From NCBI RefSeq assembly GCF_000987835.1, contig NZ_CP011308.1:1426001-1490000 (forward strand): a stretch of DNA of 64,000 nucleotides, read 5' to 3'. The notes under the pieces were generated by a model. The model was not told the DNA's origin and ran no database searches. It saw only the letters and a program-made list of their open reading frames with translations. Below, piece after piece: positions 2,411-64,000 of the stretch (its first letter is position 1; the number at the start of each line of letters is the position of its first letter). Source of the stretch: Sulfurovum lithotrophicum (lineage in GTDB: Bacteria > Campylobacterota > Campylobacteria > Campylobacterales > Sulfurovaceae). The position numbers were made by a program, and so were the translations under genes.

Positions 2411-4190
2411 CTAAGGTTTATGATCAAACTCCGGCACGATCTCTTTAAGTTTGCCGAGTTTGTTTTCTGTATTCAACAGCTCTTCAATGTCATGATTCAA
2501 CTTCCCAATATCATAAGAGGTTCTTTTACCCACCATAATAGATTCATATTTTGTTTTGCTTTCCGCATCATCGATCAGCAGTTCTTCATAGAGCTTTTCT
2601 CCCGGTCGAAGTCCGGTAAAAACTATCCCGATATCATCACGACCTGAAAGATCGATCATTTTTTGGGCAAGGTCCACGATCTTTACCGGCTCTCCCATAT
2701 CCAAAATAAAAATCTCTCCTCTTGTCCCGATCGCACCTGCCTGAAGTACCAGTTCACAGGCTTCAGGTATCAGCATAAAGTATCTGGTGATATCAGGGTG
2801 TGTTACAGTAATATCCTGCCCCTTTTCGATCTGTGCCATAAATTTCGGTATCACAGATCCACTACTTCCAAGAACATTACCAAAACGTACAGCAACGATA
2901 TCCGTTCCGTTACCAAGTGAATTTTGGGCATAGAGCTCACAAACTCTTTTAGTCGCTCCCATGACATTTGTCGGCCGTACTGCTTTGTCTGTAGAGACCA
3001 GAATGCACTTTTGGACACCATGTTTGATAGACATATCAATAATATTTTTAGTTCCTAAAATATTGTTAACGATCCCTTCTTCGATGTTCGCTTCCACCAT
3101 AGGCACATGTTTATAGGCTGCAGCGTGGATGACGATCTGCGGTCTGTAGCGCTCAAATGTTTTTTCCATATCTTCTCTATTGACCACAGACTGCAGCACA
3201 GGAACAATCTCCACATGGTTACGCTTTTCCAGTTCCTGTTCAATACTGTAAAGATTATATTCACTATGATCGATCAAGATCAGTTTTTGGACACCAAAGT
3301 TTTGGCATTGTCTTGCGATCTCACTTCCTATACTTCCACCTGCCCCAGTGATCAGGACAACTTTTTCTTTTAGGAACCCGACAATCACCTCTTTATCCAG
3401 ATCCTTCGGGTGGCGTGCCATCAAATCTGCGACCGAAAGATTTTTCAACTGACTTGCAAAATCTTTCTCCCTGAGTATCTCGTCCATCGAAGGAAGTATC
3501 TTTATCTCTTTAAAATAGTCACCCAGTCTTTCATAGACCTCTTTTATTCTTTCCTGTGGTGCACTGGGCATAGCGATGACAAGCAGATCACAACGGCCAT
3601 ACTGATCTATTTTGCTTTCCAATTTCTTTTTGGAGAGGACATCTATACCATCTATGGATCTTTTCTGCATCTTCTTGTCATCATCGACAAAATATCTGAC
3701 TTTATACTCACTGTCCCTAAATTCCTCTTCAAGTTTCGTTCCTGCTTTTCCTGCACCGTATATCACAACATTTTTTGTCTTCTCAACATGGCTCCTGTTG
3801 ATCAGAAAATAGTAGAAATAGACCATAAAATTAATGACAAAAAGATAAAGCAGAAGTTCAGATGTTAGAAATGAGATACTGACATGGCCGTAAAAAAAAG
3901 GCATATAAACCATAAATGCCGCGACATAAACCACGCTTTTTAACAGGAATGTTTTGACAGAAGATTTTGACCAGGAGAGTGAATAATCTTTGAAAAAAGC
4001 AGTGATGCAAGCATGCGTACAGCTATGACTATCAGTACCAGATCCATGTCAAAAGGCAGATGAAAGATAAAAAAAGTCCACCAGAACGTACCCAACGTCA
4101 ACAGAGCGATCACTAAAAAGTTTGCTATTCTTTTATCAATAAGTAAAATAGTAAGCCTTTTTTTATATAATATATAATCTATTTTTGTTA
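2411..4190 (-). pseudogene. pglF: PglF-like UDP-N-acetylglucosamine 4,6-dehydratase, frameshifted
   Basis: PglF/WbpM/CapD enzymes are membrane-anchored dehydratases that turn UDP-GlcNAc into the 4-keto-6-deoxy sugar. The 3' reading frame (2411-3934) carries a first Rossmann motif (VVIYGAGKAG), a second (VLITGAGGSIGSE) and the STDKAVRPTNVMGATKR active-site block in which Met replaces the usual Tyr. The N-terminal membrane helices are in a different frame (3940 to about 4190). The two frames join as one protein if a run of six A (3993-3998) had seven, giving ASLLFFKDYSLSW into FLLKSVVYVAAF. No ATG exists in 4110-4190 and the formal TTG at 4206 overlaps a -10-like box, so the start is unclear. 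It could be inactive, phase-variable or a sequencing error. Together with PglE it would make UDP-4-amino sugar. Confidence 0.8.
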
Positions 4191-4196
4191 GAGTGT

Positions 4197-4241
4197 AGAA
4201 TAGCAATTTTTTTAAAAAAAATCTGTAAGAATAATCCTACA
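4197..4241 (-). promoter_or_regulatory. RcsAB-box-like operator and promoter upstream of pglF
   Basis: TGTAAGAATAATCCTACA (4224-4241) is a near-perfect inverted repeat. On the minus strand it is followed by a T/A-rich spacer and TTGCTATTCT, an extended -10 type box (TATTCT at 4197-4202). The same arrangement recurs at 19465-19509 and 23872-23916. Confidence 0.6.
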
Positions 4242-4376
4242 AACCAAAATTTAAATCTAAAATTCAATATTTTAAGAGGGAAAAAAGCTCACTTTATTGG
4301 CTTTATTATTTTATCCGTCCTTATTTATTAATCAAAAAATATTTCACTAAACAGGATACCCACATTCAGTAGCTGA

Positions 4377-6092
<1,716 letters not shown>

Positions 6093-7656: not shown

Positions 7657-8832
7657 TTATAGTTTGGCTCGTTTGATGATCAGATCAGACAATCTTTTAA
7701 TGTAGAAAAAAGGAAGCAGCATACTGTTCTCAACACCATATAAATCCTTGATTGTTTGTGGTGAAGGTACTATGGCAACGAAAAGATTTCCTAAACTGTC
7801 ATAAAGACTCATATTGAAAAGAATATATCCTATCTTGGAAAATTTTTTCTTTTTCTGATCAAAAATATCGGCCTTTTTAATGAAGTGCCTAATTAAAGAT
7901 CCACGTATTATATTGGGTTTCAATTCATCCAGTACATTTTCTGGAATAGGTGTATTTAACAAATTTTTAGCAAAACACAAAGAAAAATATACTGAAGTTT
8001 TCAACTGGAGTTCTTCAACTTGTTTAACAAATTTATCCCAGTCAATATCTGTATAGCGGACGATTCTGTCAACATCTGAGTGAAGCCTAAACCCGGGTGC
8101 CCGTACATAGGAGTGTTTTGTCGTATGCAAAGCAACTTGCAAAAGGTTATCTTCTGGTGCCAGTATTCTGACCTTACTACCTGCCGCCTGATAGGATCTT
8201 TTAACAAGCTCATTGCCATTGGGTTCATTCTCAGGCTGTATCCATCTTCCTGCAATCGGCCTCCACTGCAGCTCCAGCCAAACCTTATAGCCATTGATAT
8301 CCTGATAATACTCCGTTCCGCCGCCACGAAATGCTTCTTCTATATCTTCATGCTCATATTCGGATCGAAATTTAAAGGTATAGCCCAATTCCTCCATGAT
8401 GATCTCATGTGCTTTGTGAAAGTGATCTGTTTCGATCAACAGGTCAATATCTCCCATGGGAGAGCATGCAACATTTTTATATATACCTTTGGTTATGCCG
8501 GCATTTTTAAGTGCAACGATCGGTATATTGTATTCATCAAGCTTAGCAGCGACTCTCTCAAGTTCCTCCATCAGGTTCGTAATTCTTTTCTCAACTTCAT
8601 CAAAAGACGCATTCCACTTTTCATCCAATGAAATGCCAGTCTCTTTCATCAAGTATGCAACATGAGAATCTACTTCATCAATTTTAGCTTCATTGTAAAG
8701 TTGCTCGTCATCAACTTCATTATATAGTTCAAGAAATTTCTCTTTTTTTTCATCTGGTGTATTAGATGCCAGTGCCAGACACATTATCTCTTGTATTTTC
8801 GACTTATTATTTACAAAATCACAATAATTCAT
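7657..8832 (-). CDS. NTP_transf_5-type nucleotidyltransferase family protein
   Basis: This 391-residue protein has a core VALKNAGITKG...SPMGDIDLLIE around residues 105-132, the G-D-x-D metal-binding pattern of the uncharacterised nucleotidyltransferase family (Pfam NTP_transf_5, assignment from memory). Further features are a His-rich strand (LLQVALHTTKHS) and conserved RLHSDVDRIVRY. Members are frequent in polysaccharide loci but their substrate is not established. It follows a glycosyltransferase gene by 15 nt and precedes pglC by 12 nt in the same operon. Confidence 0.75.
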   Translation of the reverse strand: MNYCDFVNNKSKIQEIMCLALASNTPDEKKEKFLELYNEVDDEQLYNEAKIDEVDSHVAYLMKETGISLDEKWNASFDEVEKRITNLMEELERVAAKLDEYNIPIVALKNAGITKGIYKNVACSPMGDIDLLIETDHFHKAHEIIMEELGYTFKFRSEYEHEDIEEAFRGGGTEYYQDINGYKVWLELQWRPIAGRWIQPENEPNGNELVKRSYQAAGSKVRILAPEDNLLQVALHTTKHSYVRAPGFRLHSDVDRIVRYTDIDWDKFVKQVEELQLKTSVYFSLCFAKNLLNTPIPENVLDELKPNIIRGSLIRHFIKKADIFDQKKKKFSKIGYILFNMSLYDSLGNLFVAIVPSPQTIKDLYGVENSMLLPFFYIKRLSDLIIKRAKL

Positions 8833-8847
8833 TTATTTATTCACCTT

Positions 8848-9948
8848 TTATTTTTTAGTAATTCCAAGAAAGTTTTTGATGTTTGCATGGTAACTTTCTT
8901 CAGAATATTTTCTTTTTGATTCAGCTATGTTGTGCATAGATATTTTATTTAACAATTCACGATTATCAATTATAGACTCGATTTTATCAGCAACATCTCT
9001 AGGGCTTTTAATTCCAACTAACCCACCATTAATATTATCTTTGACTAATGATGGCAAAAATTTATACTTGGTTGCAATGATATAACATCCCATCCTCATA
9101 GCTTCTATAATAGATAGTGGTACTGCTTCCGATTTGTAATAAGAGGGTAACGCAAAAACATGACTCTGTGCCAACAAATTAAACTTTGTTTCCGCATCAA
9201 CAACACCTACATATTCAATATATTCTTTATCTGAGATGATCTCATAAAAAGTTTTTTCAACCTCAGAAAGACTTAATTCAGTATCACCCACAAAACCACC
9301 AGCAATAACCAGTTTAATGTTATGCTCTTTCTCTTGTAATATATCTACAGCATCTATTAAGTCAAATATTCCCTTGCTTTTCATAATACTTGATAAATAT
9401 AGTATTTGTATTTTATTGTCCTGATGGCTTTTTACTGTTAAATCTACTTTTGGAACATTCGAGTAAAAATTTGGTATAACTTTTACTATGTCCGGTTTTC
9501 CAAGAAAATCAAATTCACTTTCCATACCTTTTATTAAAACAGCATGAGCATCAACATGTTTATATAGTTTAATATAAATTTTTCTTAATATTGGAGGTAA
9601 TCCCGAAATAAATTCTGAAAGATCCGAACCATGCAAATGATTATAAAACTTCGCAGATGAAAGATATGTAAACAATAATAAATATATATCACGCAAACTG
9701 CCAATTTTAGATCGTGAACACAGGAAATACACTATAGTAGGTCTATATACTATAAAATAATATGGTACTTTTACAAAATAAAGAAGCAATCTTGCAATGG
9801 ATCCCAATGAACCCTTAGATCGGAATGAACTTTCAATTATTTTCATATCGTTGCCCTCCAGGCAATCGACAACACTTTGAAAAGCAATTGATTGTCCATG
9901 CCATGGAGGTGGTAATGAACCAATTAATAATAATTTAGTTTTTTTCAT
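8848..9948 (-). CDS. Family 4-type glycosyltransferase
   Basis: This 366-residue GT-B fold glycosyltransferase begins KLLLIGSLPPPWHGQSIAF, has the C-domain opening IQILYLSSIMKSKGIFDLI and ends with the donor-binding motif SEAVPLSIIEAMRMGC, in which the E-x7-E acids bind the nucleotide sugar. It would add one sugar of the lipid-linked repeat unit on the cytoplasmic face. It overlaps the wzy gene by 4 nt. The donor sugar cannot be predicted; GDP-fucose and GDP-mannose are available from the locus. Confidence 0.85.
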   Translation of the reverse strand: MKKTKLLLIGSLPPPWHGQSIAFQSVVDCLEGNDMKIIESSFRSKGSLGSIARLLLYFVKVPYYFIVYRPTIVYFLCSRSKIGSLRDIYLLLFTYLSSAKFYNHLHGSDLSEFISGLPPILRKIYIKLYKHVDAHAVLIKGMESEFDFLGKPDIVKVIPNFYSNVPKVDLTVKSHQDNKIQILYLSSIMKSKGIFDLIDAVDILQEKEHNIKLVIAGGFVGDTELSLSEVEKTFYEIISDKEYIEYVGVVDAETKFNLLAQSHVFALPSYYKSEAVPLSIIEAMRMGCYIIATKYKFLPSLVKDNINGGLVGIKSPRDVADKIESIIDNRELLNKISMHNIAESKRKYSEESYHANIKNFLGITKK

Positions 9949-38781: not shown

Positions 38782-41700
38782 CTACTTCTTTTTATCTCCT
38801 CCGACGAACTTAATAATATCATCCTCACTCATATCTCTTTTATAGACGATATCGTAGGATTGTGAAATTTCATCGAACTTGAGAACACTTTCTGTACGTG
38901 GTGAGTGCCTGTATTTCAAAATAACTTTGGAAACCTCATCATTTTCATAGATCACGGTGATCTTGTCTGTCAGCTTTTTGCCGATCGCCATACTGCCGTC
39001 CGCTCCAATGGCAAGATAGTCTATCTTGACTCCGGCATTGGCAAGTGCCGATTTTGCCATGGCACCGCCCATCATTTTCATCATGTCTTCACTGCTGTTG
39101 CTGCCTGCTCCCTCCTCAGAATCAAAAAGGATCACAGAGAGTATCTGCTCTCGTGTCAAACTCGGTTTGGATGAGAAGTTGATCACCGGTACTGCAGGCG
39201 TTCCCGACACATTGATGGTAATCAGATAATTCTCCGCCTGGTACTCCACTTCAATATCCAAAAGCGGTTTGTTGGGATCACCGGTCAAATAGATATCTCC
39301 TTTTTTGACGACAAAACGTTTTCCCTGAAAGTCGTAGCTCCCTCCTTTGACCAGTTTGACTTCTCCAAGGACCATGGGGTCCGAATGGATCGATTTAAGG
39401 ACTTTTATATCAAGATTGGCCTTCATATCTATATCACCCTGCTTATAAACCAGAGGTTTTTCCGAGTTAATAATCATATCGACGCTAAGATTGTCCATAA
39501 AGGGGCTTGGTTCCTCTTTTTTCATATCCTGTACGATGAGTATGTCACTGTCACTCGGAAAACTCTTGGCACCAAGGTCATAGTGTACATTCCCTCCGAG
39601 CAAGGTGACCTTTCCGTTCACATCGGTAGCTGCACCGTTGAATTTGGTCTTGATGTTGATCCTGCTGTCAAGGTCTACCATCTCGTGAGCGAGGTGAAAG
39701 GTCGGTGCGTCCGCAAGGATCTCACCCTTCATTGTTTTGGTATCGAGTTGCCCTGTCACTTTCAGCTGATCGTTCAGCCACAGTTGCGCAATAGTGAGCG
39801 TACCTTCTTTCATCTCCACGACGGAAGGCTTGGTCGCAAAGAATTTCATTTTGCTGTAGGTTATCTTATAATTGCTCAGTTCTACGGTATCGCCCTTTTT
39901 AGCAAGTACCACCTGGACATCATCTATTATCTGGTCGGTCTTTCGGTCTACATGATAGATGATTTGAGGAGAGGTGATCTTCAGTGCTGCTTCCCGCTTT
40001 TTATTGATCACGAGTGAAAGGTCCAGTTTTCCGTCCACTTTTGGAAGGTCTTTTACCGTATAGAACTCCTTGACCGTTCCCAGCAGCGTACTGAAAGAGC
40101 CGATATCGCTCTTAATGACGATATCCTCTCCTACTTTACCTTTCAGGGTGGTTGTCAATCCGGCAAGGCGTATCTTTCCGTTTACCGTACCGTCGGCAGG
40201 CTTCATATCCATCGTTGCAGATATCTTGCTGGATTTGAGTGAAGCAATGATGTTTTTTTTACCCATTTTCGCATTGGCTGTCAAAGGAAAAATGGCATTC
40301 CAGTGAATGTTCTTGTCGAAATTCTTTAGCAGTGAATCATCGGGTATCTTTGTAACCGCTTTGAGTGTCACAGCGTCACCGTACACAATATCGGCATCTA
40401 CATTTGCCACATTGGAGCTGATTTTCGCTTTTCCATTGATCGGAGTGAGTTTGGCAAAATTGAGCGGAACATCGATAACGGCATTGACCTTCGTACCATT
40501 GAGTTCGGCAGGCAAAGCCACCATTTTCCCTACTTCTACGGCTTCTTTGGTCTCCAGATGGAATTCACCCTGTTTTTTCAGGTCTTTGGCGACAAAATAA
40601 CCTTTAAGTCCCTGGGCATCGATATCGGTTTTGATACTTTTAAGATCGCCGCTGTACGTCACATGAAGATTGTTCACGGGTTTGACCAGCTTCGCATCAA
40701 GGCCGATGATCTCTCCTGCTTTGATCTCACCGGAATAGGAGATATTCTTATCCATTTCAAAATGGTTCGTCAACATGATATCTTTGGCATAAGGTGTTGT
40801 TACCATGATCTTTGTATCTGCATTGAGTTTTTTCTCTTTCACTCCAAAGGTTACATGACTTTTGAGTAAATCGACATTGATGTTGAATTCTGTAGCATTT
40901 GATTCATTACTGTCACTACTCTTTGGCATAAGTAAAAGGTTTTTTGCCTGTGAACTTATGTCCGCAACTACTTTTTCTTTGCTTGCATTAATATCAATGG
41001 TAACATTGCCTATCGCTTTTTTACGTATTGGGAGATCATACATCTTATATAATCTGTTGCGCGGGGTCAAGATGATCTCAGCCTCAAACTTATTGTTTTT
41101 GATGTGGCCGTGCTCACTGATATTGCTCAGGTTTGTCGTACCGTTCAGATCGATCATACCCTTCTCGACCATACGCTTCTCCACATCAACTTTCAGATCT
41201 TTGGCATCCATGGCAAATGCCAGAATATGAACGGGATCGAAAGTGGCAGGCAGGATATCCGTATGTAATGATTCAAGTACAATTTTTTTCGGGATCAGAT
41301 TGTTTTTCTTTTGCTGAGTGCTTGTATTGTTCTCTTCGTTTGTTTCTGTCTGGGCAATTTCTTCAGCAGGTTCAGCTGTGGTATTCGTTTCATTGCTGTC
41401 CGGAGCGAACATGGCTTTCAGTGCCATGGTATCTACTTTGATGACATTCACCTTCTTCAAGGTAAGTACATCTTTCTTCAGAAAGCCTGCTATGTCGGCC
41501 TGACCCAGATCACTCTTGAGCTCAAGCGCGTAATTTCCGACAGAGATGGCATTTTGTTCATTATCGAGGATCCTGACGATATCCGCTTTGAGATCATCGA
41601 TGTTCACTTTGAGTTTATCTATGCTGGCAGCAAGATAGCTTCTCGGCTTCAGTGAAGCGGAAAAATGCTCTATGACCGCTTCTTTGGGGATGAGAGGGTT

Positions 41701-42393
41701 CATCGGTTCGCTCTTCTTCTCTGCAACTGTTTTGGCCTCTGCTTCTTCTGTGGTGTTGCCCTCTTTCGGCATGAACATCGCCTGCAGTGTTTCACTGTCT
41801 ATTTCATCGATACGCAACTCTTTGACCGTCACTGTTCCATCTTCCAGAGCTGCCTGCAGTTTCAGCTGTGTGATATTGGTATCGACCTGCGCAGAAAGAT
41901 CTCCTACTTCCACTTCATCGCTTGCATAGGAAATATCTTTAGCATTCAAAAGCGTTTTTTCAAACAATATCCCCTGTTCTTTAAAAGGATCGACACTGAC
42001 ATGGACCTTGCCAACAGTCACCACAACAGGAAAAGGTTTGGAGGAACTGCTGTTGTCCTCTTGGCCCGGAGGCAAAGAGGCAATGAGCGCTTTTACAGTA
42101 TCTATATTGAGATTCTCCATACCGATCTCATTGATCGCAATACGTCCGTAAAGGATTTTGGAGGGATTCCATGAAAAACGGATCTGCCTGCTGATGTTCC
42201 TGCCGGCATATTTCAGTCCGTCTATCTTGACACCGGTAAAAATATTTCCTTTAATGTCACTGTAACTGATATTATAGTCAGGCGCAAACACATCTGCCAC
42301 TTTTTTGATGACGAACGAAGAGTTTGCAGCGACCACGATGATCACGATGAGTGAGACAAAAAAGATCAAGATACCATAAAAAAACTTCTTCAT
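38782..42393 (-). CDS. tamB: TamB/DUF490 inter-membrane bridge protein
   Basis: This 1203-residue AsmA-like protein has an N-terminal membrane anchor (FFYGILIFFVSLIVIIVVAANSS, residues 4-26), a long repetitive beta-groove middle, and the conserved C-terminal DUF490 domain (GGSYDFQGKRFVVKKGDIYLTGDPNKPLL, then SKPSLTREQILSVILFD). It spans the periplasm and is now thought to carry phospholipids to, or help assemble proteins in, the outer membrane. The stop is 2 nt from that of the convergent nspC. Its start overlaps the stop of tamA by 1 nt. Confidence 0.9.
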   Translation of the reverse strand: MKKFFYGILIFFVSLIVIIVVAANSSFVIKKVADVFAPDYNISYSDIKGNIFTGVKIDGLKYAGRNISRQIRFSWNPSKILYGRIAINEIGMENLNIDTVKALIASLPPGQEDNSSSSKPFPVVVTVGKVHVSVDPFKEQGILFEKTLLNAKDISYASDEVEVGDLSAQVDTNITQLKLQAALEDGTVTVKELRIDEIDSETLQAMFMPKEGNTTEEAEAKTVAEKKSEPMNPLIPKEAVIEHFSASLKPRSYLAASIDKLKVNIDDLKADIVRILDNEQNAISVGNYALELKSDLGQADIAGFLKKDVLTLKKVNVIKVDTMALKAMFAPDSNETNTTAEPAEEIAQTETNEENNTSTQQKKNNLIPKKIVLESLHTDILPATFDPVHILAFAMDAKDLKVDVEKRMVEKGMIDLNGTTNLSNISEHGHIKNNKFEAEIILTPRNRLYKMYDLPIRKKAIGNVTIDINASKEKVVADISSQAKNLLLMPKSSDSNESNATEFNINVDLLKSHVTFGVKEKKLNADTKIMVTTPYAKDIMLTNHFEMDKNISYSGEIKAGEIIGLDAKLVKPVNNLHVTYSGDLKSIKTDIDAQGLKGYFVAKDLKKQGEFHLETKEAVEVGKMVALPAELNGTKVNAVIDVPLNFAKLTPINGKAKISSNVANVDADIVYGDAVTLKAVTKIPDDSLLKNFDKNIHWNAIFPLTANAKMGKKNIIASLKSSKISATMDMKPADGTVNGKIRLAGLTTTLKGKVGEDIVIKSDIGSFSTLLGTVKEFYTVKDLPKVDGKLDLSLVINKKREAALKITSPQIIYHVDRKTDQIIDDVQVVLAKKGDTVELSNYKITYSKMKFFATKPSVVEMKEGTLTIAQLWLNDQLKVTGQLDTKTMKGEILADAPTFHLAHEMVDLDSRINIKTKFNGAATDVNGKVTLLGGNVHYDLGAKSFPSDSDILIVQDMKKEEPSPFMDNLSVDMIINSEKPLVYKQGDIDMKANLDIKVLKSIHSDPMVLGEVKLVKGGSYDFQGKRFVVKKGDIYLTGDPNKPLLDIEVEYQAENYLITINVSGTPAVPVINFSSKPSLTREQILSVILFDSEEGAGSNSSEDMMKMMGGAMAKSALANAGVKIDYLAIGADGSMAIGKKLTDKITVIYENDEVSKVILKYRHSPRTESVLKFDEISQSYDIVYKRDMSEDDIIKFVGGDKKK

Positions 42394-44180
42394 TAGAATG
42401 ACTGCCCTATCTGGAACTGGATACCGTAAATGGAAGTATCATTTACATTGAAACCCACATCGAGTTTCAGCGGCCCGACCGGTGTCATGTACCGTACACC
42501 TACACCTGCAGAGCTTATAATGTCACCGTTAAAATCCATACTCTCTTTGGCCAGCATGGTATTGTCACTGAAAACCGCACCGTAAAGGTCTCCCCATATA
42601 GGGTAATCCGCTTCTATACTCAGGTTAACCCATGTCTGGGCACCATCCACGAGATCGGTGGTCGGAGAGGTGATCGCACCGATCTCTCTGAAGCCGTAGG
42701 CACGGTTGGAGTACATACCCCCGGCAAAGAATTTCTTCGATTCCGGAATCCCGTGATTGTTGCTTTCATTCCCGATCTCGATGACACCCACTTTTCCAAC
42801 TGTTGCCAAAGTAAGATCGGCAACTGTATAAATTCCCCTGAGTTCCAAAAGATATTTCTGATAGGCACTGGTTTCGCTATTGGTAGGAATACCCCATTCT
42901 CCATACCCTCTGATGTAATATCCGTATTTTGGGTTGAGTTTGGAATCCCTGCCGTCATACGTCACATCCAGGTAGGGGTAGGTCAATAAAAAAGTATTAT
43001 ACGCTCCGGGAGGCAGTTCAGGTTGACCGTCATCACGTTTTGAAATATCTATAGATTCAAAAGTAAGACCCAGTTTGATATCAAAACGTTCCGTTGCATG
43101 ATTCAGGTATGTTGTAAAAAAAAGTTTCTTTTCCCGGAATCCGTCATATCCGAGATTCGAATACCCGCCTTTTGTCCCAAGGTCAAGCCAGAAACCAAAA
43201 GGTTCCCAGACCACCGGCTTGAAAAAACTCAATACCGCAAGCTGTTCGAGCTGCGACCAGGCAAGGTCTAGCTGAAGCTTCTGGGCGTTTCCCATAAAGT
43301 TATGCTTGAGAACCTGTCCATGCATACGCATACCTACATAACTGTCATACCCCGCACCCACTTCAAAATGGTATGGCTGATCCATTTCCGATACCGTGAT
43401 ATCTACCGGGACGACATTGTAGAATTTCCTGTCTATATTGACCAGAACGGAATCAAAAGAGTTCAGGCCATACAGGGCATCATAGGTATCTTTCACTTTT
43501 TCCAGATCGAACCGTTGTCCTTTTCTGGCTCTGACACGTGATTTGATAATATTCTCATCAATGGTTTCATTGCCCTGAACGGTTACATTTCCAAACGTAC
43601 AGATATCACCCTTTTTAAGTACAAATGTCATATCGACAGTATGTTTATTCAGGTCAACATAAGCCTTGGTATCCAGGTAGTAACTGCAGTATCCCTGCTT
43701 GAGCATCTCTTCCGAGATCCTTCCCTTGACAGCAATGAACTCCTTTGCCTTGAAGATATCTCCCTTATGAAAGGTGATCATATCGTCAATCTTGTAGTCA
43801 CTGCTGATATTGATATCGTTGACAAGGACCGGCTTGTTCTCTTTAACGCTGACTTTCACCGTTGTTTTGGTCTGTTTGATCTTGAATTCGGCATCATAGT
43901 AGCCTTCGGCATCAAAGTAATTGCGCAGTGTTGCCCCAAGCGTGGGAAGAAGTTTATCCTTAATGCGCGCCGTGTCATCTTTCCAGAATTGGTAGAAACT
44001 TTTATGGTCGGCACTGACAGCGTCAAGGAGGTCTGACTCATCAAAAACCTCTTCTCCGCCAAACTTGATGATATGCGTGGAAAGCCCGACCTCTTTACTC
44101 TCATTGTTGTCACTGAAAAAACCCGCAGAGGCAAAACTGTTCAAGAGCAGTAATAATAAAAATGAGTGCTTGAAATACAT
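42393..44180 (-). CDS. tamA: TamA-type Omp85 outer-membrane protein
   Basis: This 595-residue protein has a signal peptide (FLLLLLLNSFASAGFF), POTRA domains from about residue 55 (KVSVKENKPVLVNDI; YCSYYLDTKAYVDLNKHTVDMTFVLKKG; TVQGNETIDENIIKSRVRARKGQRF) and a 16-stranded barrel from about residue 265, including the lid-loop-type motif GGMYSNRAYGFREIGAI and a C-terminal YGIQFQIGQSF ending in Phe. Gene fusion-like overlap with tamB shows that the two are co-translated partners of the TAM complex. Confidence 0.9.
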   Translation of the reverse strand: MYFKHSFLLLLLLNSFASAGFFSDNNESKEVGLSTHIIKFGGEEVFDESDLLDAVSADHKSFYQFWKDDTARIKDKLLPTLGATLRNYFDAEGYYDAEFKIKQTKTTVKVSVKENKPVLVNDINISSDYKIDDMITFHKGDIFKAKEFIAVKGRISEEMLKQGYCSYYLDTKAYVDLNKHTVDMTFVLKKGDICTFGNVTVQGNETIDENIIKSRVRARKGQRFDLEKVKDTYDALYGLNSFDSVLVNIDRKFYNVVPVDITVSEMDQPYHFEVGAGYDSYVGMRMHGQVLKHNFMGNAQKLQLDLAWSQLEQLAVLSFFKPVVWEPFGFWLDLGTKGGYSNLGYDGFREKKLFFTTYLNHATERFDIKLGLTFESIDISKRDDGQPELPPGAYNTFLLTYPYLDVTYDGRDSKLNPKYGYYIRGYGEWGIPTNSETSAYQKYLLELRGIYTVADLTLATVGKVGVIEIGNESNNHGIPESKKFFAGGMYSNRAYGFREIGAITSPTTDLVDGAQTWVNLSIEADYPIWGDLYGAVFSDNTMLAKESMDFNGDIISSAGVGVRYMTPVGPLKLDVGFNVNDTSIYGIQFQIGQSF

Positions 44181-55073: not shown

Positions 55074-55168
55074 GTAGGGTGCGTAACCACGCACCACATC
55101 ATACAATCTGTATACAATAATTATATGCCGAAAAGGCCAACAAAAAGGTACGTGTCTGCGTACCCTGC
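55074..55168. repeat. REPIN-like pair of GTAGGGTGCG palindromes, copy C
   Basis: GTAGGGTGCGTAACCACGCA plus CC (55074-55095) and GGTACGTGTCTGCGTACCCT plus GC (55147-55168) are in inverted orientation. It differs in the loop from copies A and B. It lies in the leader of the TonB receptor gene; TACAAT between the arms may serve as its -10. Confidence 0.7.
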
Positions 55169-55199
55169 AATACTATATTACACCATAGGAAACATTATT

Positions 55200-57062
55200 A
55201 TGAAATTCAAACAACTCAGCCTCATTACAGCGACACTGCTGCTTTCAAACACTGCTTTTGCCGAAGAGAGTTTAGGAGAGATCACTGTTACAACCGCAAC
55301 ACAGACAACACAAACACTTAATGATGTCACCTCCAATATTGATGTGATAACAGCTCAGGAAATTCAGGATAGAGGCTATACAACAGTTGCCCAGGCACTT
55401 AGTTCGGTAGCAGGTATCAGCTTTGTCAGCAATGGAGGAATCGGACACAGCACTTCTGTATTTCTCCGAGGTATGGACAGTAAACACATTCTTGTACTGA
55501 TCGATGGTGTAAGATACAACGACCCCACCTCTCTCAGCGGTGCACCGTTTTCCGATCTGATGGTCGATGATATTGCACAGATCGAGATAGTCAAAGGGGC
55601 ACAATCAGGTATCTGGGGGGCAGATGCCAGTGCCGGTGTTATCAATATTATCACAAAAAAAGCAAAAAAAGGTACCCATGCTTCAGCCCATATCGAAGGT
55701 GGAAGTTTCGGAACATGGAAGTATGGTGCAAGCGTTTCTACCGCAACTGATATTTACTATGCCAACATCAGCTACAATGTGGTTGATACTGACGGATTCA
55801 CTACCGTAGCGCCCTATGGTACCGACATTGACCAGTATGAGGACGATGAATACAAAAATGAAACCATCAATATGAAGGCAGGGTATCATTTTAACGAAAA
55901 TAACAGACTTTCACTTTCCTATAGTCAGATCAAAGGTGACGGTGATGCCGATCCTTACGACAGTACAACCTATTCTTTTGATCCGAATGGACAATACAGG
56001 TTTGAAAGTACCTATAAATTCACCAAAGCGAATTTCAACCATAAAGACAGCTATGAGACACTGAATCTCTATGCACAGCGTTCTGACTTCAGCCGGACAT
56101 ATCCGGATGCACTGTTTGGTAAGCATTTTGACGGATCAGTCGATGAGTTTGGTATCAATTCCAAGATCGACTATCGAAGCAAAGACTTCCTGCTTGTCGG
56201 TGTAGATAAAAAAGACTACAGTTATGAAAACGACATTGATAAAAATTATGATTCCACAGGAATATTTGCTACCAATGCCAATACGTTTGAAGGAATACTC
56301 GGAGGTACAACCATCTTGACTGAATCACTGCGTTACGATAACTACAGTGACTTTGACAGTAAAGCTACAGGAAAAATCGGTATCAAGCATGTTCATAGTC
56401 ACATCGAGGGGCTGGTCACTTCCTTTAACTATGGAACGGCCTACAACGTACCGACCATGTATCAGCTTTTCGACCCATTCAGCGGTAATACCAACCTCAA
56501 CCCCGAAACAACCGACAGTTACGATGTGACTCTTGCCTACAAAGATTTAAAGATCACCTACTTCAACAACAAAATCAAAGACATGATTGATTATGTCAGT
56601 AATTATGATGCAAACGGAAACTGGATCGGCGGTGGCTATGACAATGTTTCAGGCACTTCAAAAATAGATGGGCTTGAGTTAGCTTACCAGAAAGAAGTAT
56701 ATGAGGGGGTTCTGCTGAACAGCAACTATACCCATCTTTTCAAAGCCGAAAACAATGACGGCAAAACACTGGCAAGACGCGCAAAGGATACCTTCAATCT
56801 TGGTGTTGATTACTACGGTATCGACAAACTGCATATCGGTGCGGATGCACAGTACATCGGTGAACGCTACGATAGAGCCGGGGAACAAGGCGAACAAACC
56901 GGAAAATACACCGTGTTTAACATGACAGCTGACTACCAGGTCACCGATGCACTACAGGTTTATGGTAAAATCGAGAATATCGGTGATAAATACTACCAGA
57001 CGGTCTATGGTTACGCAACAAGCCCACGAGCCTTCTTTATCGGTGTAAGAGGAAACATCTAA
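55200..57062 (+). CDS. btuB: TonB-dependent outer-membrane receptor, BtuB-like
   Basis: The 620-residue protein (from ATG 55200) has a signal peptide ending NTAFA, a TonB-box-like ITVTTATQT, a plug domain (TVAQALSSVAGISFVSNGG, VFLRGMDSKHILVLIDGVRYND, IEIVKGAQSGIWGADASAGVINIITKK) and a 22-strand barrel ending FFIGVRGNI. Plug sequence and its position before btuF/D/C and cob genes identify corrinoid as the likely substrate. The ORF extends upstream to 55125 but that part lies in a REP element and is basic, not a signal peptide. Confidence 0.9.
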   Translation: MKFKQLSLITATLLLSNTAFAEESLGEITVTTATQTTQTLNDVTSNIDVITAQEIQDRGYTTVAQALSSVAGISFVSNGGIGHSTSVFLRGMDSKHILVLIDGVRYNDPTSLSGAPFSDLMVDDIAQIEIVKGAQSGIWGADASAGVINIITKKAKKGTHASAHIEGGSFGTWKYGASVSTATDIYYANISYNVVDTDGFTTVAPYGTDIDQYEDDEYKNETINMKAGYHFNENNRLSLSYSQIKGDGDADPYDSTTYSFDPNGQYRFESTYKFTKANFNHKDSYETLNLYAQRSDFSRTYPDALFGKHFDGSVDEFGINSKIDYRSKDFLLVGVDKKDYSYENDIDKNYDSTGIFATNANTFEGILGGTTILTESLRYDNYSDFDSKATGKIGIKHVHSHIEGLVTSFNYGTAYNVPTMYQLFDPFSGNTNLNPETTDSYDVTLAYKDLKITYFNNKIKDMIDYVSNYDANGNWIGGGYDNVSGTSKIDGLELAYQKEVYEGVLLNSNYTHLFKAENNDGKTLARRAKDTFNLGVDYYGIDKLHIGADAQYIGERYDRAGEQGEQTGKYTVFNMTADYQVTDALQVYGKIENIGDKYYQTVYGYATSPRAFFIGVRGNI

Positions 57063-57099: not shown

Positions 57100-57933
57100 A
57101 TGATGAAATATGTGCTACTATCCTGTCTTAGTGTCCTTGCAATAGCACAGGAGCGTATTGTCACACTCTCTCCTGCCATCAACGAGATAGTCTATGCCCT
57201 TGGAGCGGGTGATATGGTCGTGGGAAACACTACCTATTCTACCTACCCCGAAGCTTCCAAGCACGTAGCAAAAGTTGGCGGGTACTTCTCCCCCGATCTC
57301 GAGAAGATACTTGCATTGCATCCCACGATCGTATTTATGCAGCCCAATAACCGAAAACTCCTCGCACAACTTGAGAAGCTAGGTATACAGACACGGATCA
57401 TCCCTATCGACAGCCTCCCTCACATCACTACGGCTATTTTGCAATTGGGGAAGCAACTTCATAAAGAGGAAAAGAGCCGCTATATCGTTACACAGATAGA
57501 CAGGGCACTCAAGGCACTCAACGGTATCGTAACAGGAAAAAGAATACTTATGGTCATCGGTCACAATACCTCTCTGGTCGGAAATATCTTCGTGGTAGGC
57601 CAGAACCTCTACCTCAATGATATCATCAACGCTTCCGGCAACACCAACGCTCTGCAATCTGCACGCAAAGGACAGCCCATTCTTAACATAGAGAATCTCA
57701 TTGCCGCCAATCCAGACATCGTTATTCTTCTTGTACACGATATGAAAAAAAGCGGCCTCAGTAAGAATGACCTCATCCAACCCTGGCTGGAACTGCCCAT
57801 TACCGCAGTGAAAAATCGCGACATTTATATTATTGACAAAGAGTATACCGGTATCCCCAGTGACCGTCTGATCTATTTTTTGCAGGATTTTAAAAAGATA
57901 TTGACCCATGTTAACAATCACCAACTACAATAG
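57100..57933 (+). CDS. btuF: Periplasmic cobalamin-binding protein BtuF-like
   Basis: This 277-residue protein has a short signal peptide (YVLLSCLSVLAIA) and a helical-backbone binding-protein fold of the BtuF/FepB type: RIVTLSPAINEIVYALGAGDMVVGNT, VGGYFSPDLEKILALHPTIVFM, and the C-domain GKRILMVIGHNTSLVGNIFVVGQN. It hands corrinoid from BtuB to BtuCD. It starts 38 nt after btuB and overlaps the ATPase gene by 26 nt. Confidence 0.88.
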   Translation: MMKYVLLSCLSVLAIAQERIVTLSPAINEIVYALGAGDMVVGNTTYSTYPEASKHVAKVGGYFSPDLEKILALHPTIVFMQPNNRKLLAQLEKLGIQTRIIPIDSLPHITTAILQLGKQLHKEEKSRYIVTQIDRALKALNGIVTGKRILMVIGHNTSLVGNIFVVGQNLYLNDIINASGNTNALQSARKGQPILNIENLIAANPDIVILLVHDMKKSGLSKNDLIQPWLELPITAVKNRDIYIIDKEYTGIPSDRLIYFLQDFKKILTHVNNHQLQ

Positions 57934-58603
57934 TGATATCCTCAGAGACATCTCCTTTTCACTCAGGAGGGGCAGACATCTTACTATCCTGGGTGCCAAC
58001 GGTACAGGTAAGACCACCCTTGCCAAAGTTCTTGCCGGGCTCATTCCGACAGAGAGTGTCTGCATTGAAGGTATTTCTCCCTCCAGAGTCTATGGCAAGA
58101 AACGGGCCGAATGTATCAATTACATACCTGCAAAACTGGAAATCTATGATGATTACCTGCTGGTGGAAGACTTTCTTTCCCTGGCACAGTTCGAATCCCA
58201 AATCACCACTGACACTACACTGCAGAAGCTCGGCATAAGCCATCTCATGGGCAAACCGTGCAAAACGCTTAGTTCCGGAGAATCACAGATGCTTCTTATC
58301 GCTTCTGCACTGATGCATCAAGCAGATTTCACCATCTTCGATGAGCCTACCGCCAATCTTGACCCAATACGGATGCGGTTGCTTTTTACACTGCTCCAAG
58401 AGGACACAACACTAAAAAGCAAGATCATCATCACCCACAATCTTGACCTTGCCTACCGCCTGGACTTTGATATCCTTTTCCTACATGAGGGCAAGATAGC
58501 CTTTGAAGGCAGCGCCAAAGCCTTCTTCTCCCAGCCACAGCTTGATACGTTCTACGGTGGTGCAGTCAAGAATCTCGGTAACCACGTGGTAGTGTCATTA
58601 TGA
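57908..58603 (+). CDS. btuD: Cobalamin ABC transporter ATPase BtuD-like
   Basis: This 231-residue ATPase has Walker A ILGANGTGKTTLAKVLAGL, signature CKTLSSGESQMLLIASALM and Walker B FTIFDEPTANLDP with the following H-loop IIITHNLDLAY. The Q-loop region is degenerate. It overlaps the permease gene by 4 nt. Confidence 0.88.
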   Translation: MLTITNYNSDILRDISFSLRRGRHLTILGANGTGKTTLAKVLAGLIPTESVCIEGISPSRVYGKKRAECINYIPAKLEIYDDYLLVEDFLSLAQFESQITTDTTLQKLGISHLMGKPCKTLSSGESQMLLIASALMHQADFTIFDEPTANLDPIRMRLLFTLLQEDTTLKSKIIITHNLDLAYRLDFDILFLHEGKIAFEGSAKAFFSQPQLDTFYGGAVKNLGNHVVVSL

Positions 58604-59541
58604 AAAGAGTTCTACTTGTATCAGGTTTTCTGATCCTTCTTTTTGCACCTTTTTTTGGAGAGATCAAGCTTACACTCTCAAGCCTTTGGGACACTCACAG
58701 TCTCGAACATCAGGTCTTTTTCCAAATACGCCTGCCACGTGTACTGCTGGCCTTCTTCGTAGGCGGTATTCTCTCTTTGGGCGGTATGGTCTTCCAGGTG
58801 GTCTTCCGCAATCCCATGAGCACACCATTTACTCTCGGTGTTGCCAGCGGTGCCACACTTTTCACTGCTGCGGCCATTGTGATGGGCTTCTCTTTTCTTT
58901 CACCATTGTTTGCCTTTGCAGGGGCGGTACTGACCGTACTGATACTCTTTGGGGTCGCTTCACGCTTCAAAGGATACGATCCGACCTCTTTACTACTTGT
59001 AGGCATTGCCCTTTCGTTCTTCTATGCAGCAGCACTAATGCTGATGTTCTACCTCTCATCACTCCAGGAGAGCTACGAGATAATGCGCTTTACGATGGGA
59101 AGCCTCGATGTAGTCGGCTACCGCAACATTCTGCTTCTGGCATTCACTTCCCTGCTGCTTGTATGGCTTGTCATTGTCTACCGTATGCCACTGCGTGCCC
59201 TGCTGACCTCTTATGAGTTTGCTTTCATGCAGGGCATCCATGTCAGACGTGTCAGCTACATCCTGCTTCTGGGCGTATCTCTGGCCGTGGGGGTTGCTGT
59301 CAGCCTGACAGGCCCTATCGGTTTTGTCGGACTTATCATTCCGCACATACTGCTGCGTATCTATCGCCAAAGTACCGACAGGATCATCATGCCCGTTTTC
59401 TTTTACGGAGGTGTATTCCTGGTCCTTTCCGACCTCATTGCCCGCAATCTCGGTAACACTGATCTGCCTATTGGAGTGGTTACCTCCTTTCTGGGAGCGC
59501 CATTCTTCATCTATATTTTGCTCAAAAGGAATACAGCATGA
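58600..59541 (+). CDS. btuC: Cobalamin ABC transporter permease BtuC-like
   Basis: This 313-residue FecCD-family permease has about nine to ten transmembrane helices. Conserved blocks are RLPRVLLAFFVGGILSLGGMVFQVVFRNPMSTPFTLGVASGATLF and the coupling-loop SLTGPIGFVGLIIPHILLRIY, followed by IARNLGNTDLPIGVVTSFLGAPFFIYIL. It belongs to the type II importer BtuCDF. Confidence 0.9.
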   Translation: MKRVLLVSGFLILLFAPFFGEIKLTLSSLWDTHSLEHQVFFQIRLPRVLLAFFVGGILSLGGMVFQVVFRNPMSTPFTLGVASGATLFTAAAIVMGFSFLSPLFAFAGAVLTVLILFGVASRFKGYDPTSLLLVGIALSFFYAAALMLMFYLSSLQESYEIMRFTMGSLDVVGYRNILLLAFTSLLLVWLVIVYRMPLRALLTSYEFAFMQGIHVRRVSYILLLGVSLAVGVAVSLTGPIGFVGLIIPHILLRIYRQSTDRIIMPVFFYGGVFLVLSDLIARNLGNTDLPIGVVTSFLGAPFFIYILLKRNTA

Positions 59542-59584: not shown

Positions 59585-61294
59585 ATGAAACGCTTCTCTT
59601 TCCAGGATGCCAAGGTTCTTGAAGAGATCATCAAGGCCAGACGTGACGTAAGGGGCAACCACTTTACCAGTGAGCCGGTCACTCAGGCAGAGATAGATAC
59701 TATACTCTCTGCGGCCCATTATGCACCTTCCGTAGGTTACTCCCAGCCATGGAAATTCATTGTCATCACCGATAAAATCATACAGGATGCCGTCTACAAA
59801 AATTATGAACACACTTACAAAAAAAGCAAAAAGAAGTTCAAATACCGTCCCATGTACAAAGAACTGAAACTCGAAGCACTGAGAGAGACTTCTGTGCATA
59901 TTGCCGTTTTCTATCATAATCAGGGAGGCAATATCCTCGGCCAGACTTCGCAGTCCGATACCGGACGCTATAGTGTAGCCACCGCCATACAAAATATGTG
60001 GCTGATGGCACGTGCCATGAATATCGGTATCGGATGGGTCAGCATCCTTACACCAAAGAAGATACGCAAACTGCTTGGTATGGGAAAAGCCTATGAACTG
60101 GTCGGCTATCTCTGTGTCGGAAAAGTCAGTACATTTCTCAAGGAGCCGGAACTCAAGCTCAAAAAATGGCAAGAAAAGAAAAAAAGGAGTCAAACCGTAC
60201 TGCATATGGATGGTAGGACACAACGGGGATCGGTAGAAGCGATCAAGACTATTACAGGGGACAAAAGCTTCCTGCATCCTCTTGTGGACAAAAAAGCCAC
60301 CTTCATGCTTGCCATGAGCAATACCAAAACAGCAAAGATAAAAGGTATCTCACAGGCAGGACTTCCAGGACTGCTGCACCTGACCCCGACACTCGATGCG
60401 GAGTTCCTCTCCCGGGGGAAACTCAAAAGCCTCAAAAAACTGCCCAAAACAAAAAATGGTATTCCCACACCGGCACTTATTAGCCGTGCCATACATCTGC
60501 TGTACCCTTACGGACACATCGAAGCCATGGACCTTGGGTTGAAAATACCACCAAAGTTAAAATGCCCACAATACCGTTTTGATATTAAACCTTCAGGCTC
60601 CATTGACAAAGGGGCAAATATCGAGGCAAGAACACTGTTTGAAAAAGGTATGGCATTTGGCAGGAGTTATCAATGCAAAGAGCATTATCTTATTTTGGGA
60701 GAGTCTGTCCCTTCAGGAACCACTACAGCAGCAGCAAGTGCATTAGCACTAGGCTATCATGCCAGATCACTCTTCTCTTCGAGCTTCAAAAATGTACCCA
60801 AAAATATAAAAAAAAGGACTATTGACAAAGCCCTCTCCAAGATAAAAGAAAAGACCGATCCCTTTGACATCCTAAGCTCTGTGGGTGACAATATGCTTAT
60901 ATTTATTGCAGGGTTCATATTGGGGGTCAACAGTCGCTTCCCCCTTATCCTTGCCGGAGGGACACAAATGGCTGCCGTACTGCTTGTGGCCGATACACTT
61001 GCCAAGCACCTCGATATAAAAATAGACAGCTCGCAACTTGCGCTGTGTACCACCAAATGGGTAGCAGAGGATCCAAATTCAGATATCGATGCACTTTTGC
61101 ATATGCTTGATTTCCCCATCAATGCCTATTATGCCGATTTTACTTTCTCTTTAAGCCATCACCCGCTTCTCAAGCTGTATGACAAAGGAGAGGCAAAAGA
61201 GGGGGTCGGTGCCGGTGGTGCTTTGGTATATGGTATGCTAAACGGGTTGACACCCGCAGAGATCACCAGACAGGTGGAGGGACTGCTCCCATGA
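59585..61294 (+). CDS. BluB-CobT fusion: dimethylbenzimidazole synthase and archaeal-type phosphoribosyltransferase
   Basis: This 569-residue protein combines two steps. Residues 1-215 match BluB, the flavin-destroying enzyme that makes 5,6-dimethylbenzimidazole: IKARRDVRGNHF, AAHYAPSVGYSQPWKFI, QNMWLMARAMNIGIGWVSIL. Residues 222-569 match the TIGR00303/UPF0284 (archaeal-type CobT) family: YLILGESVPSGTTTAAASALALGYHARSLFSS, DPFDILSSVGDNM, FPLILAGGTQMAAVLLVAD. That half would activate the base with nicotinate mononucleotide. A basic linker (KKWQEKKKRSQ) joins them. BluB needs oxygen, which suits microaerobic life. It overlaps cobU by 4 nt. Confidence 0.9.
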   Translation: MKRFSFQDAKVLEEIIKARRDVRGNHFTSEPVTQAEIDTILSAAHYAPSVGYSQPWKFIVITDKIIQDAVYKNYEHTYKKSKKKFKYRPMYKELKLEALRETSVHIAVFYHNQGGNILGQTSQSDTGRYSVATAIQNMWLMARAMNIGIGWVSILTPKKIRKLLGMGKAYELVGYLCVGKVSTFLKEPELKLKKWQEKKKRSQTVLHMDGRTQRGSVEAIKTITGDKSFLHPLVDKKATFMLAMSNTKTAKIKGISQAGLPGLLHLTPTLDAEFLSRGKLKSLKKLPKTKNGIPTPALISRAIHLLYPYGHIEAMDLGLKIPPKLKCPQYRFDIKPSGSIDKGANIEARTLFEKGMAFGRSYQCKEHYLILGESVPSGTTTAAASALALGYHARSLFSSSFKNVPKNIKKRTIDKALSKIKEKTDPFDILSSVGDNMLIFIAGFILGVNSRFPLILAGGTQMAAVLLVADTLAKHLDIKIDSSQLALCTTKWVAEDPNSDIDALLHMLDFPINAYYADFTFSLSHHPLLKLYDKGEAKEGVGAGGALVYGMLNGLTPAEITRQVEGLLP

Positions 61295-61785
61295 AATTCC
61301 TTTACTTTGGCGGACAGAAATCAGGGAAAAGCCTGCTTGCAGAACAGAAGGCACTCAACCTTGCAGGGAACACCAGGCCCTACTACATCGCTACCTACGA
61401 CAATAGTTACGGTGATGACGAGATGCAAAAGCGCATCACGACACACCAAGAACAGCGTAAAAAGAAGTTCACGACCATCGAAGAGACGCTATACCCAAGT
61501 ATACATATACAACAGGAAGGGACCTACCTCATCGACTGTATGAGTATGTGGATACTCAATACGATATCATGGAACTTTGAAGATGTTCTGGCCGAAGTGA
61601 AAACACTCTACGAGGCAAAAGCAAATATTGTCTTCGTACTCAACGATGTAAACTCGGGCATCATACCCATCGACGGCATAAGCAGAGAGTACGTGGACCG
61701 TTCTGGCATTGTAGGACAGAAGCTTGCACAGCTGTGTGATACTGTTTATGAAGTGAGACTGGGTCTGGAGCACAAACTGAAATGA
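61291..61785 (+). CDS. cobU: Adenosylcobinamide kinase / guanylyltransferase CobU
   Basis: This 164-residue enzyme phosphorylates adenosylcobinamide and adds GMP. The P-loop is FGGQKSGKSLLAE (residues 6-18), the guanylylation histidine is in KRITTHQEQRKKKF, and DCMSMWILN and FVLNDVNSGIIPID complete the core. It is slightly shorter than E. coli CobU (181). It overlaps fusion and cobD genes by 4 nt each. Confidence 0.9.
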   Translation: MKFLYFGGQKSGKSLLAEQKALNLAGNTRPYYIATYDNSYGDDEMQKRITTHQEQRKKKFTTIEETLYPSIHIQQEGTYLIDCMSMWILNTISWNFEDVLAEVKTLYEAKANIVFVLNDVNSGIIPIDGISREYVDRSGIVGQKLAQLCDTVYEVRLGLEHKLK

Positions 61786-62792
61786 CACGCTATCAACATG
61801 GTGGAGACATTGCAGCATTTGCCAGAGCCTGCGGATGCTCTCGGGGTGAAGTCATCGACCTCTCTTCTAACATCAACTTCGTTAAACCACACATCAGTAC
61901 AGACTTCAATACATTGCAAATCGCTCCCTACCCCAACTATGATGCGCTCTATAATGCCATTGCATCTCATTACAGCGTAGAGTCTACCACCCTGGAACTT
62001 TTTAACGGTGGCAGCAGTGCCATATTCTCCTTCTTTCGGGAACTCTCAACCGCAATATCTGTATGCACAATCTATTCACCTGCCTATCTCGAATACAAAA
62101 AAGCAGCCACTCTTTTTGGATACAGGCTCCACCTTATCGACAGGTTCACGCACCTGGACACAAAGATACCAGGAGAAAGCCTTGTAATCTTTGTTAACCC
62201 TGCTACCCCAGATGGAAAATTCTATGACATGGAACCCCTGCTTGAGATGTGGCACGCCCAAGAGTGCCTCGTGCTCATAGACGAATCATTCATAGAATTC
62301 ACGTCTCATCCTTCAGCGACCAGGTTCCTGAAACAGTACCCCAACCTCACCATCCTCAAGTCAATGACCAAGTTTTTCGGTGCGGCAGGCATACGTATGG
62401 GCACACTCATTTCACACCCGGACAACATTACCAGACTGAGGGCGAAAGAACCGTTGTGGAAACTCTCGGCCTTCGACAGTACCTACATACAGCTTGCCCT
62501 GAAAGACAGCGGTTTCAAGGAACGTTCGGACAGAGAAAACCACCTTGCCAGAACATTCCTTCTCGACAGTCTTGAAAACAGCCCGCTCGTAGAGAAGATC
62601 TACCCCTCAGAAGCGAACTACATACTTGTCAGACTCCACATCAGTACCGGGGAATTCCAGCAGAAACTTATCACGCACAGGCTATTGGTACGCAACTGCA
62701 TGAACTTCGACGGACTGGACGACCATCATGTACGCATTGCCGTTAAAAGCATTGGAGAACTCAGACAGCTGAAAGAGGTGCTCCATGCATAA
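61782..62792 (+). CDS. cobD: L-threonine-O-3-phosphate decarboxylase CobD-like
   Basis: This 336-residue PLP enzyme of the aminotransferase class I/II fold makes (R)-1-aminopropan-2-ol phosphate, the linker between corrin ring and nucleotide loop. Visible blocks are IDLSSNINFVKPHI, APYPNYDALYNAIASHY, LFNGGSSAIFSFFREL, FVNPATPDGKFYDM, LVLIDESFIEFTS and the PLP lysine in LTILKSMTKFFGAAGIRMG. It overlaps the next gene by 8 nt. Confidence 0.88.
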   Translation: MTRYQHGGDIAAFARACGCSRGEVIDLSSNINFVKPHISTDFNTLQIAPYPNYDALYNAIASHYSVESTTLELFNGGSSAIFSFFRELSTAISVCTIYSPAYLEYKKAATLFGYRLHLIDRFTHLDTKIPGESLVIFVNPATPDGKFYDMEPLLEMWHAQECLVLIDESFIEFTSHPSATRFLKQYPNLTILKSMTKFFGAAGIRMGTLISHPDNITRLRAKEPLWKLSAFDSTYIQLALKDSGFKERSDRENHLARTFLLDSLENSPLVEKIYPSEANYILVRLHISTGEFQQKLITHRLLVRNCMNFDGLDDHHVRIAVKSIGELRQLKEVLHA

Positions 62793-64000
62793 CTTCAGTA
62801 TCTTTGGCAGCAGTTCAGATGCAGGGAAAAGTACACTCACCTGGGTCATCGGACGAATTTTACAGGAAGCAGGCTACAGCATTGCCCCTTTCAAGGCACA
62901 GAATGTCTCCAACAATGCACACGTTGCGGATGACGGTTCCGAAATAGCCGTTGCGCAGTATTTTCAGGCAAAAGCACTCGGGGTATCAACCTCATGGCAC
63001 AACAATCCCATTTTACTCAAGTCCGGTCAGGGCTCGTCCGCTTCACTCATTGTAAGCGGCAAGAGCATTGCAGACAAAGATGTCAGAGCCTACTACCGGG
63101 AACTCGACAGCCTCAAACCCGTTGTCAAAGAAGCCTTTGAATGGCTTGATGCGCGTTATGATATAGTCATCGCTGAGGGAGCAGGTTCCCCGGTAGAGCT
63201 CAACCTGATGGATAAGGATCTCTCCAATATCTTCATTGCTACTGAGTTCAATACCCGCATCATCCTCGTAGCCGACATTGAAAAAGGTGGTGTTTTCGCT
63301 TCGATATACGGGGTTTACAATTTACTGCCAAAGCAGCTGAAAGAAAATGTCATAGGCGTCATTATCAATAAGTTCAGGGGTGATATCAGCCTCTTTGACG
63401 AGGGCATACACATCATTGAAAAGGAGTTTGGTATCCCGGTACTCGGTGTCCTCCCCTACCTGCCGTTCAACCTCGGCTTTGAGGACTCGCAGAGTCTGAC
63501 AGGGTACACCCAGGACTGTACCCGATCCACTAGACACGTTGCCGTCATCGCCTACCCAACCATGAGCAACTACACCGATTTTGAACCGCTACTGGCCGAC
63601 CCAAACACCTGTGTGGAGTTTATAAAGGCCAATGTCAACCTCTCCGGTTTTGAGTGTATTATACTTCCCGGTTCCAAACGCGTCATCGATGATCTCCGAT
63701 GGCTCAAACACAACAGCCTCTTTTCACAGCTACAGCGACATTACAAAGAAGGAAAGATACATCTCATCGGTATCTGCGGCGGGTATCAGATGATGTTTGA
63801 ACATATCCAGGATAAAGAGGGTGTGGAGGCAAATGGATCGGCAAATGAAGAGGCACTTGGTTTTATAGACGACACCATCGTTTTCAGGAAAGAAAAGGTT
63901 CTTGAACGCTGCAATGATACCTACGAGATACACCATGGTATTTCAAAAAAGTATCCGGACGGATACAAAAAAGGCAAACTCTACGGTACTTTTTCACACG
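62785..64000 (+). CDS. cobQ: Cobyric acid synthase CobQ (5' part, runs off the window)
   Basis: The ATG at 62785 opens a frame that stays open to the end of the window (405 codons). The product is the glutamine-dependent amidase that amidates four side chains of adenosylcobyrinic acid a,c-diamide. The N-terminal ATP-binding part has IFGSSSDAGKSTLTWVIGRIL, FKAQNVSNNAHVADDG and VIAEGAGSPVELNLMDKD; the glutamine amidotransferase part begins with ILPGSKRVIDDL and has the nucleophile Cys in IHLIGICGGYQMMF. E. coli CobQ is 506 residues, so about 100 residues are missing to the right. Confidence 0.93.
   Translation, partial: MHNFSIFGSSSDAGKSTLTWVIGRILQEAGYSIAPFKAQNVSNNAHVADDGSEIAVAQYFQAKALGVSTSWHNNPILLKSGQGSSASLIVSGKSIADKDVRAYYRELDSLKPVVKEAFEWLDARYDIVIAEGAGSPVELNLMDKDLSNIFIATEFNTRIILVADIEKGGVFASIYGVYNLLPKQLKENVIGVIINKFRGDISLFDEGIHIIEKEFGIPVLGVLPYLPFNLGFEDSQSLTGYTQDCTRSTRHVAVIAYPTMSNYTDFEPLLADPNTCVEFIKANVNLSGFECIILPGSKRVIDDLRWLKHNSLFSQLQRHYKEGKIHLIGICGGYQMMFEHIQDKEGVEANGSANEEALGFIDDTIVFRKEKVLERCNDTYEIHHGISKKYPDGYKKGKLYGTFSH

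Follow-up and report, generated by a model that had tools for sequence, protein, structure and literature searches.

A single gene of Sulfurovum lithotrophicum joins BluB, the flavin-destroying 5,6-dimethylbenzimidazole (DMB) synthase, to a CobT of the archaeal MjCobT type, and we consider it very probable that its product has two activities in the cobamide nucleotide-loop pathway. The window analyzed here, a stretch of 64,000 nucleotides of this genome, contains the gene as one open reading frame with an ATG start and no internal stops, within an operon for corrinoid uptake and assembly (Table 1). Two NCBIfam models exceed their cut-offs on its product, TIGR02476 (BluB) at residues 8-203 with 200 bits against 150 and TIGR00303 (CobT) at residues 235-565 with 262.9 bits against 240; NF003372 is also over its cut-off at residues 221-566 with 363 bits, while the Salmonella/E. 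coli-type CobT model TIGR03160 gives 25.9 bits against a cut-off of 319.3. The original prediction had placed BluB and CobT in one gene and assigned the second half to the TIGR00303/UPF0284 type rather than the E. coli type, and both assignments are borne out by the single reading frame and these scores. Relatives of the fusion in PDB are MjCobT (4e-48), Pyrococcus CobT (1.1e-40) and Sinorhizobium meliloti BluB 2isj (8.5e-37), and the PDB chains of MJ1598 bear the name "UPF0284".

Table 1. The bluB/cobT fusion gene and its operon within the window. Several operon gene names are best matches below the curated cut-off, combined with context.
Feature	Position	Strand	Remarks
btuB-like TonB-dependent corrinoid receptor	55125..57062	+	TIGR01779 best NCBIfam match, 302 bits, under cut-off
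btuF-like periplasmic binding protein	57100..57933	+	PF01497
btuD-like ABC ATPase	57908..58603	+	PF00005
btuC-like permease	58600..59541	+	PF01032; best NCBIfam match PRK03784 BtuC, below cut-off
bluB/cobT fusion gene	59585..61294	+	single ORF, 569 aa; same fusion in 6 other genomes
BluB domain (flavin-destroying DMB synthase)	59585..60193	+	residues 1-203; TIGR02476, 2isj match, invariant residues
linker TVLHMDGRTQRGSVE	60194..60238	+	residues 204-218; length fixed in 7/7 fusions
MjCobT-type NaMN:base phosphoribosyltransferase domain	60239..61291	+	residues 219-569; TIGR00303, NF003372, kept ligands
cobU, cobinamide kinase/guanylyltransferase	61291..61785	+	PF02283
cobD, threonine-phosphate decarboxylase	61782..62792	+	TIGR01140 best match, 222 bits, below cut-off
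cobQ, cobyric acid synthase	62785..63999	+	PRK00784, 431 bits; extends beyond window end

Conservation of the active sites has been compared for each half. In MjCobT the roles of the ligand residues have been described, with Asp52 as the proposed general base replacing Glu317 and Val317 as the equivalent of SeCobT Glu317 (PMC9561151). By pairwise alignment, S38, D52, E150, V152, T156, T240, Q241 and G311 of MjCobT correspond to S256, D271, E373, V375, T379, T460, Q461 and G535 of the fusion; V541 aligns with Val317, and the catalytic Glu317 of the Salmonella-type CobT is absent. On the BluB side, D21 and S153 do not vary among the 32 separate BluBs or the three fusions compared, and they align with positions 35 and 170 of the 2isj chain, which were taken as residues 32 and 167 with an inferred offset of three. 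The catalytic residues of the S. meliloti enzyme, Asp32 and Ser167, would be the equivalents of D21 and S153. Among columns near-invariant in separate homologues, the fusion keeps all 68 for CobT and 48 of 52 for BluB, and this per-domain test is unaffected by the misplacement of some BluB tails in the joint BluB and CobT alignment. The four altered BluB positions (A98, H105, A132 and T133, the last being T or A across fusions) are altered in the other two fusions too, and the BluB halves of the fusions sit on a long stem branch (0.8); both features speak against the bifunctional reading. The original prediction would have been refuted by loss of key flavin or NaMN residues on alignment; the tested MjCobT ligands are all kept, as are the BluB signature residues.

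By NG86, dN is 0.13-0.30 for each domain and dS is about 1 or saturated, so that the estimate of selection is rough; dN was higher in the linker (0.5-1.8). Because dN is far below dS in both domains and much less so in the linker, both halves appear constrained and the linker much less. Judged from family and residues, the BluB half would make DMB and the CobT half would activate it. A different reading is that the CobT half serves mainly to activate a base other than DMB, such as adenine or imported benzimidazole, and that BluB works only with oxygen. MjCobT does accept adenine and 5-hydroxybenzimidazole (PMC9561151), and many members of the genus have the same CobT with BluB undetected; we nevertheless hold this reading unlikely, because purifying selection acts on the BluB half, which is tied 1:1 to CobT. 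Since MjCobT alone accepts adenine, a preference for DMB here could stem from the coupling to BluB.

In the pathway that we propose, corrinoid precursors would be imported by BtuB/BtuFCD and the corrin GDP-activated by CobU. The N-terminal BluB half would convert reduced FMN and O2 to DMB, and the C-terminal half, with an aspartate as general base, would convert DMB and NaMN to alpha-ribazole phosphate and nicotinate; CobS would then join the alpha-ribazole phosphate to the GDP-activated corrin, and the phosphate would be removed by CobC. The genes are in the order btuB-btuF-btuD-btuC-bluB/cobT-cobU-cobD-cobQ-cbiB-APH-type kinase-cobS-cobC; from cobT onward they overlap by 4 to 28 bases, and the true start of the btuB-like gene is probably the ATG at about 55203. 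A compact operon of uptake plus assembly had been predicted, and this view stands and is strengthened by the missing corrin-ring genes; it was incomplete, in that cbiB, the kinase gene, cobS and cobC follow cobQ past the window end. Much the same set of operon genes is found in relatives, where bluB is separate, adjacent or absent. No cobalamin riboswitch was matched by Rfam in the window, and a relaxed threshold gave none just ahead of btuB either.

The genome was covered by family searches and by stretches close to the locus. The family searches of the whole genome found no CbiC or CbiZ and only two TP-methylase genes, and on these grounds de novo corrin synthesis was rejected; MetH is present. 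From this combination the likely role of the operon is the completion of imported precursors, and most likely the host finishes them as true cobalamin. The retention of cobQ points to the additional use of precursors that precede cobyric acid.

Two further genes of the operon were noted. The APH-family kinase gene (1981-2790 of the locus past the window, and 8585-9378 in another locus) recurs beside cobD, cobT or bluB; its best NCBIfam match, below cut-off, is homoserine kinase, and it is a candidate L-threonine kinase feeding CobD, a GHMP-type PduX being excluded by family. A small Cys-rich protein with a weak PF04071 match is encoded at the operon end and overlaps cobC (4068-4493 of the past-window locus). 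Elsewhere in the window, the minus strand carries an exopolysaccharide/O-antigen cluster at 2411-23544 (Polysacc_synt_2, DegT aminotransferase, PF14907 nucleotidyltransferase, Wzy_C and Wzz-type tyrosine kinase) and, at 38782-44180, a TamB-like gene adjoining an Omp85/POTRA gene.

A domain search across Campylobacterota had been suggested as a check; in searches of this phylum the fusion was found in seven genomes of one family including that of S. lithotrophicum, three of its genus and four of a sister genus. Of 397 genomes sampled from the phylum, 70 matched, and the two domains were fused only in the S. lithotrophicum genome and one congener; an order sample of 399 genomes added the third fusion of the genus and none outside the family. 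The original prediction had left open how widespread the combination is, and this is now answered in part; the pairing of BluB with CobT in itself was already known elsewhere. No match to the fusion covering 80% of the query was found in a plasmid search. The same fusion recurs in all seven genomes, the relatives have 67-75% protein identity, and two of the genomes are single-contig, which refutes a sequencing or assembly error as the source of the joined frame; rarity alone speaks for such an error, and we give it practically no weight. The fusions cluster together as a single group in each of the two trees, for CobT and for BluB (100/100 each), and by these sequences the seven are of one origin. 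No in-frame start between BluB and the CobT core is shared among the seven, and an internal start for a separate CobT was rejected, since M208 is unconserved and no start codon is common to the fusion linkers.

In other Campylobacterales genomes bluB and cobT are separate and often adjoining, neighbours with an 8-base gap or a 14-base overlap being among them. The separate genes of other Campylobacterota belong to the same two families, BluB and TIGR00303-type CobT, and have the same operon partners as the fusion; differently from it, they are two genes, sometimes with the kinase gene between them and sometimes far apart. In another Campylobacterales family, one genome (G665:C1:394679-396361) has bluB and cobT in a shared reading frame, separated by one TAG and three further codons ahead of the CobT start, showing how little is needed to join the two. 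In many congeners the operon is likewise btuBFDC-cobT-cobU-cobD, with cobT alone in place and BluB undetected in the assembly, some of these assemblies being incomplete. The fusion probably arose when bluB came to stand directly before cobT in the operon, followed by in-frame joining. In a further genome (G355:C42:1262-2545), the CobT match continues on its upstream side into a stretch that resembles BluB but holds five in-frame stops, possibly a decayed bluB or a match run over the gap.

These arrangements bear on the possibility that the fusion is an operon accident, in which the stop between neighbours was lost with no special advantage and the product was kept by drift. The existence of separate neighbouring genes, the relative that is a single TAG away and the rarity of the fusion (seven genomes, one origin) agree with it; against it, the fusion has persisted across two genera at the above identities with constant linker length, no re-split into two genes was found within the fusion clade, and analogous fusions are known in Actinobacteria. 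We regard drift as a possible but rather doubtful explanation.

An AlphaFold model of the 569-residue fusion has a pLDDT of 87.5 and a pTM of 0.65, and it resembles MjCobT with a TM score of 0.88-0.90 (by target length) and BluB with 0.79, each over its own half. At residues 185-194 and 196-210 the pLDDT falls below 50, and the linker, of about 15 residues without proline and of variable sequence, is predicted to be disordered. Because of this predicted disorder and the pTM, which gives no relative placement of the two domains, no channel is visible in the model. True channelling, in which DMB made at the BluB site would reach the CobT site without entering the bulk, can be put forward tentatively. 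It would agree with the constant linker length in the seven fusions and with the domain order shared with the Propionibacterium freudenreichii BluB/CobT2, which is reported to channel its metabolite efficiently (PMC4657239), and the analogy with that fusion makes a direct handover of the base plausible. The unconserved sequence and predicted disorder of the linker speak against channelling, as does the fact that closely related organisms manage with separate proteins. Most likely the benefit of the fusion would be the guaranteed 1:1 co-production of both activities and a high local concentration of DMB, tipping the cell towards true cobalamin over other bases, rather than a tunnel, for which nothing observed here speaks.

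Comparison with known systems defines what is new. BluB/CobT2 of P. freudenreichii carries out both the synthesis and the activation of DMB in vitro, and adenine was not used by it; BluB/CobT fusions are "rather widespread among Actinobacteria", and other classes have isolated entries (PMC4657239). The actinobacterial enzyme likewise has an N-terminal BluB and a C-terminal CobT in one chain, and from FMN and NaMN it yields alpha-ribazole phosphate, the product predicted here (PMC4657239, PMC10038948). It differs in having a Salmonella-type CobT, about 30% identical to S. enterica CobT, where the present fusion has an MjCobT-type half whose general base is a different one, and in its proline-rich linker of about 34 residues. 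MjCobT (MJ1598, UPF0284, TIGR00303) shares fold, active-site residues and the aspartate general base with the C-terminal half, and S. meliloti BluB (2isj) shares fold and signature residues with the N-terminal half, both being stand-alone enzymes, MjCobT without BluB in its chain. In the searchable literature, which is limited in extent, we found no description of BluB fused to the MjCobT type; the pairing of BluB with an archaeal-type CobT appears to be undescribed, while BluB/CobT fusion as such is already known. The Campylobacterota fusion is most likely convergent with the actinobacterial one.

We see about an even chance that BluB and CobT have been fused at least twice independently, in two CobT lineages that are unlike in catalytic base and dimer interface. 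If this is true, physical coupling of DMB synthesis and activation would itself be selected, here in corrinoid scavengers near the oxygen limit. Since the two CobT types differ in general base and dimer interface, they would provide a natural comparison for asking whether coupling, rather than a structural tunnel, sets the lower base of B12. BluB was undetected in close relatives with the same CobT, and some scavenging Campylobacterota probably turn imported precursors into true cobalamin with oxygen.
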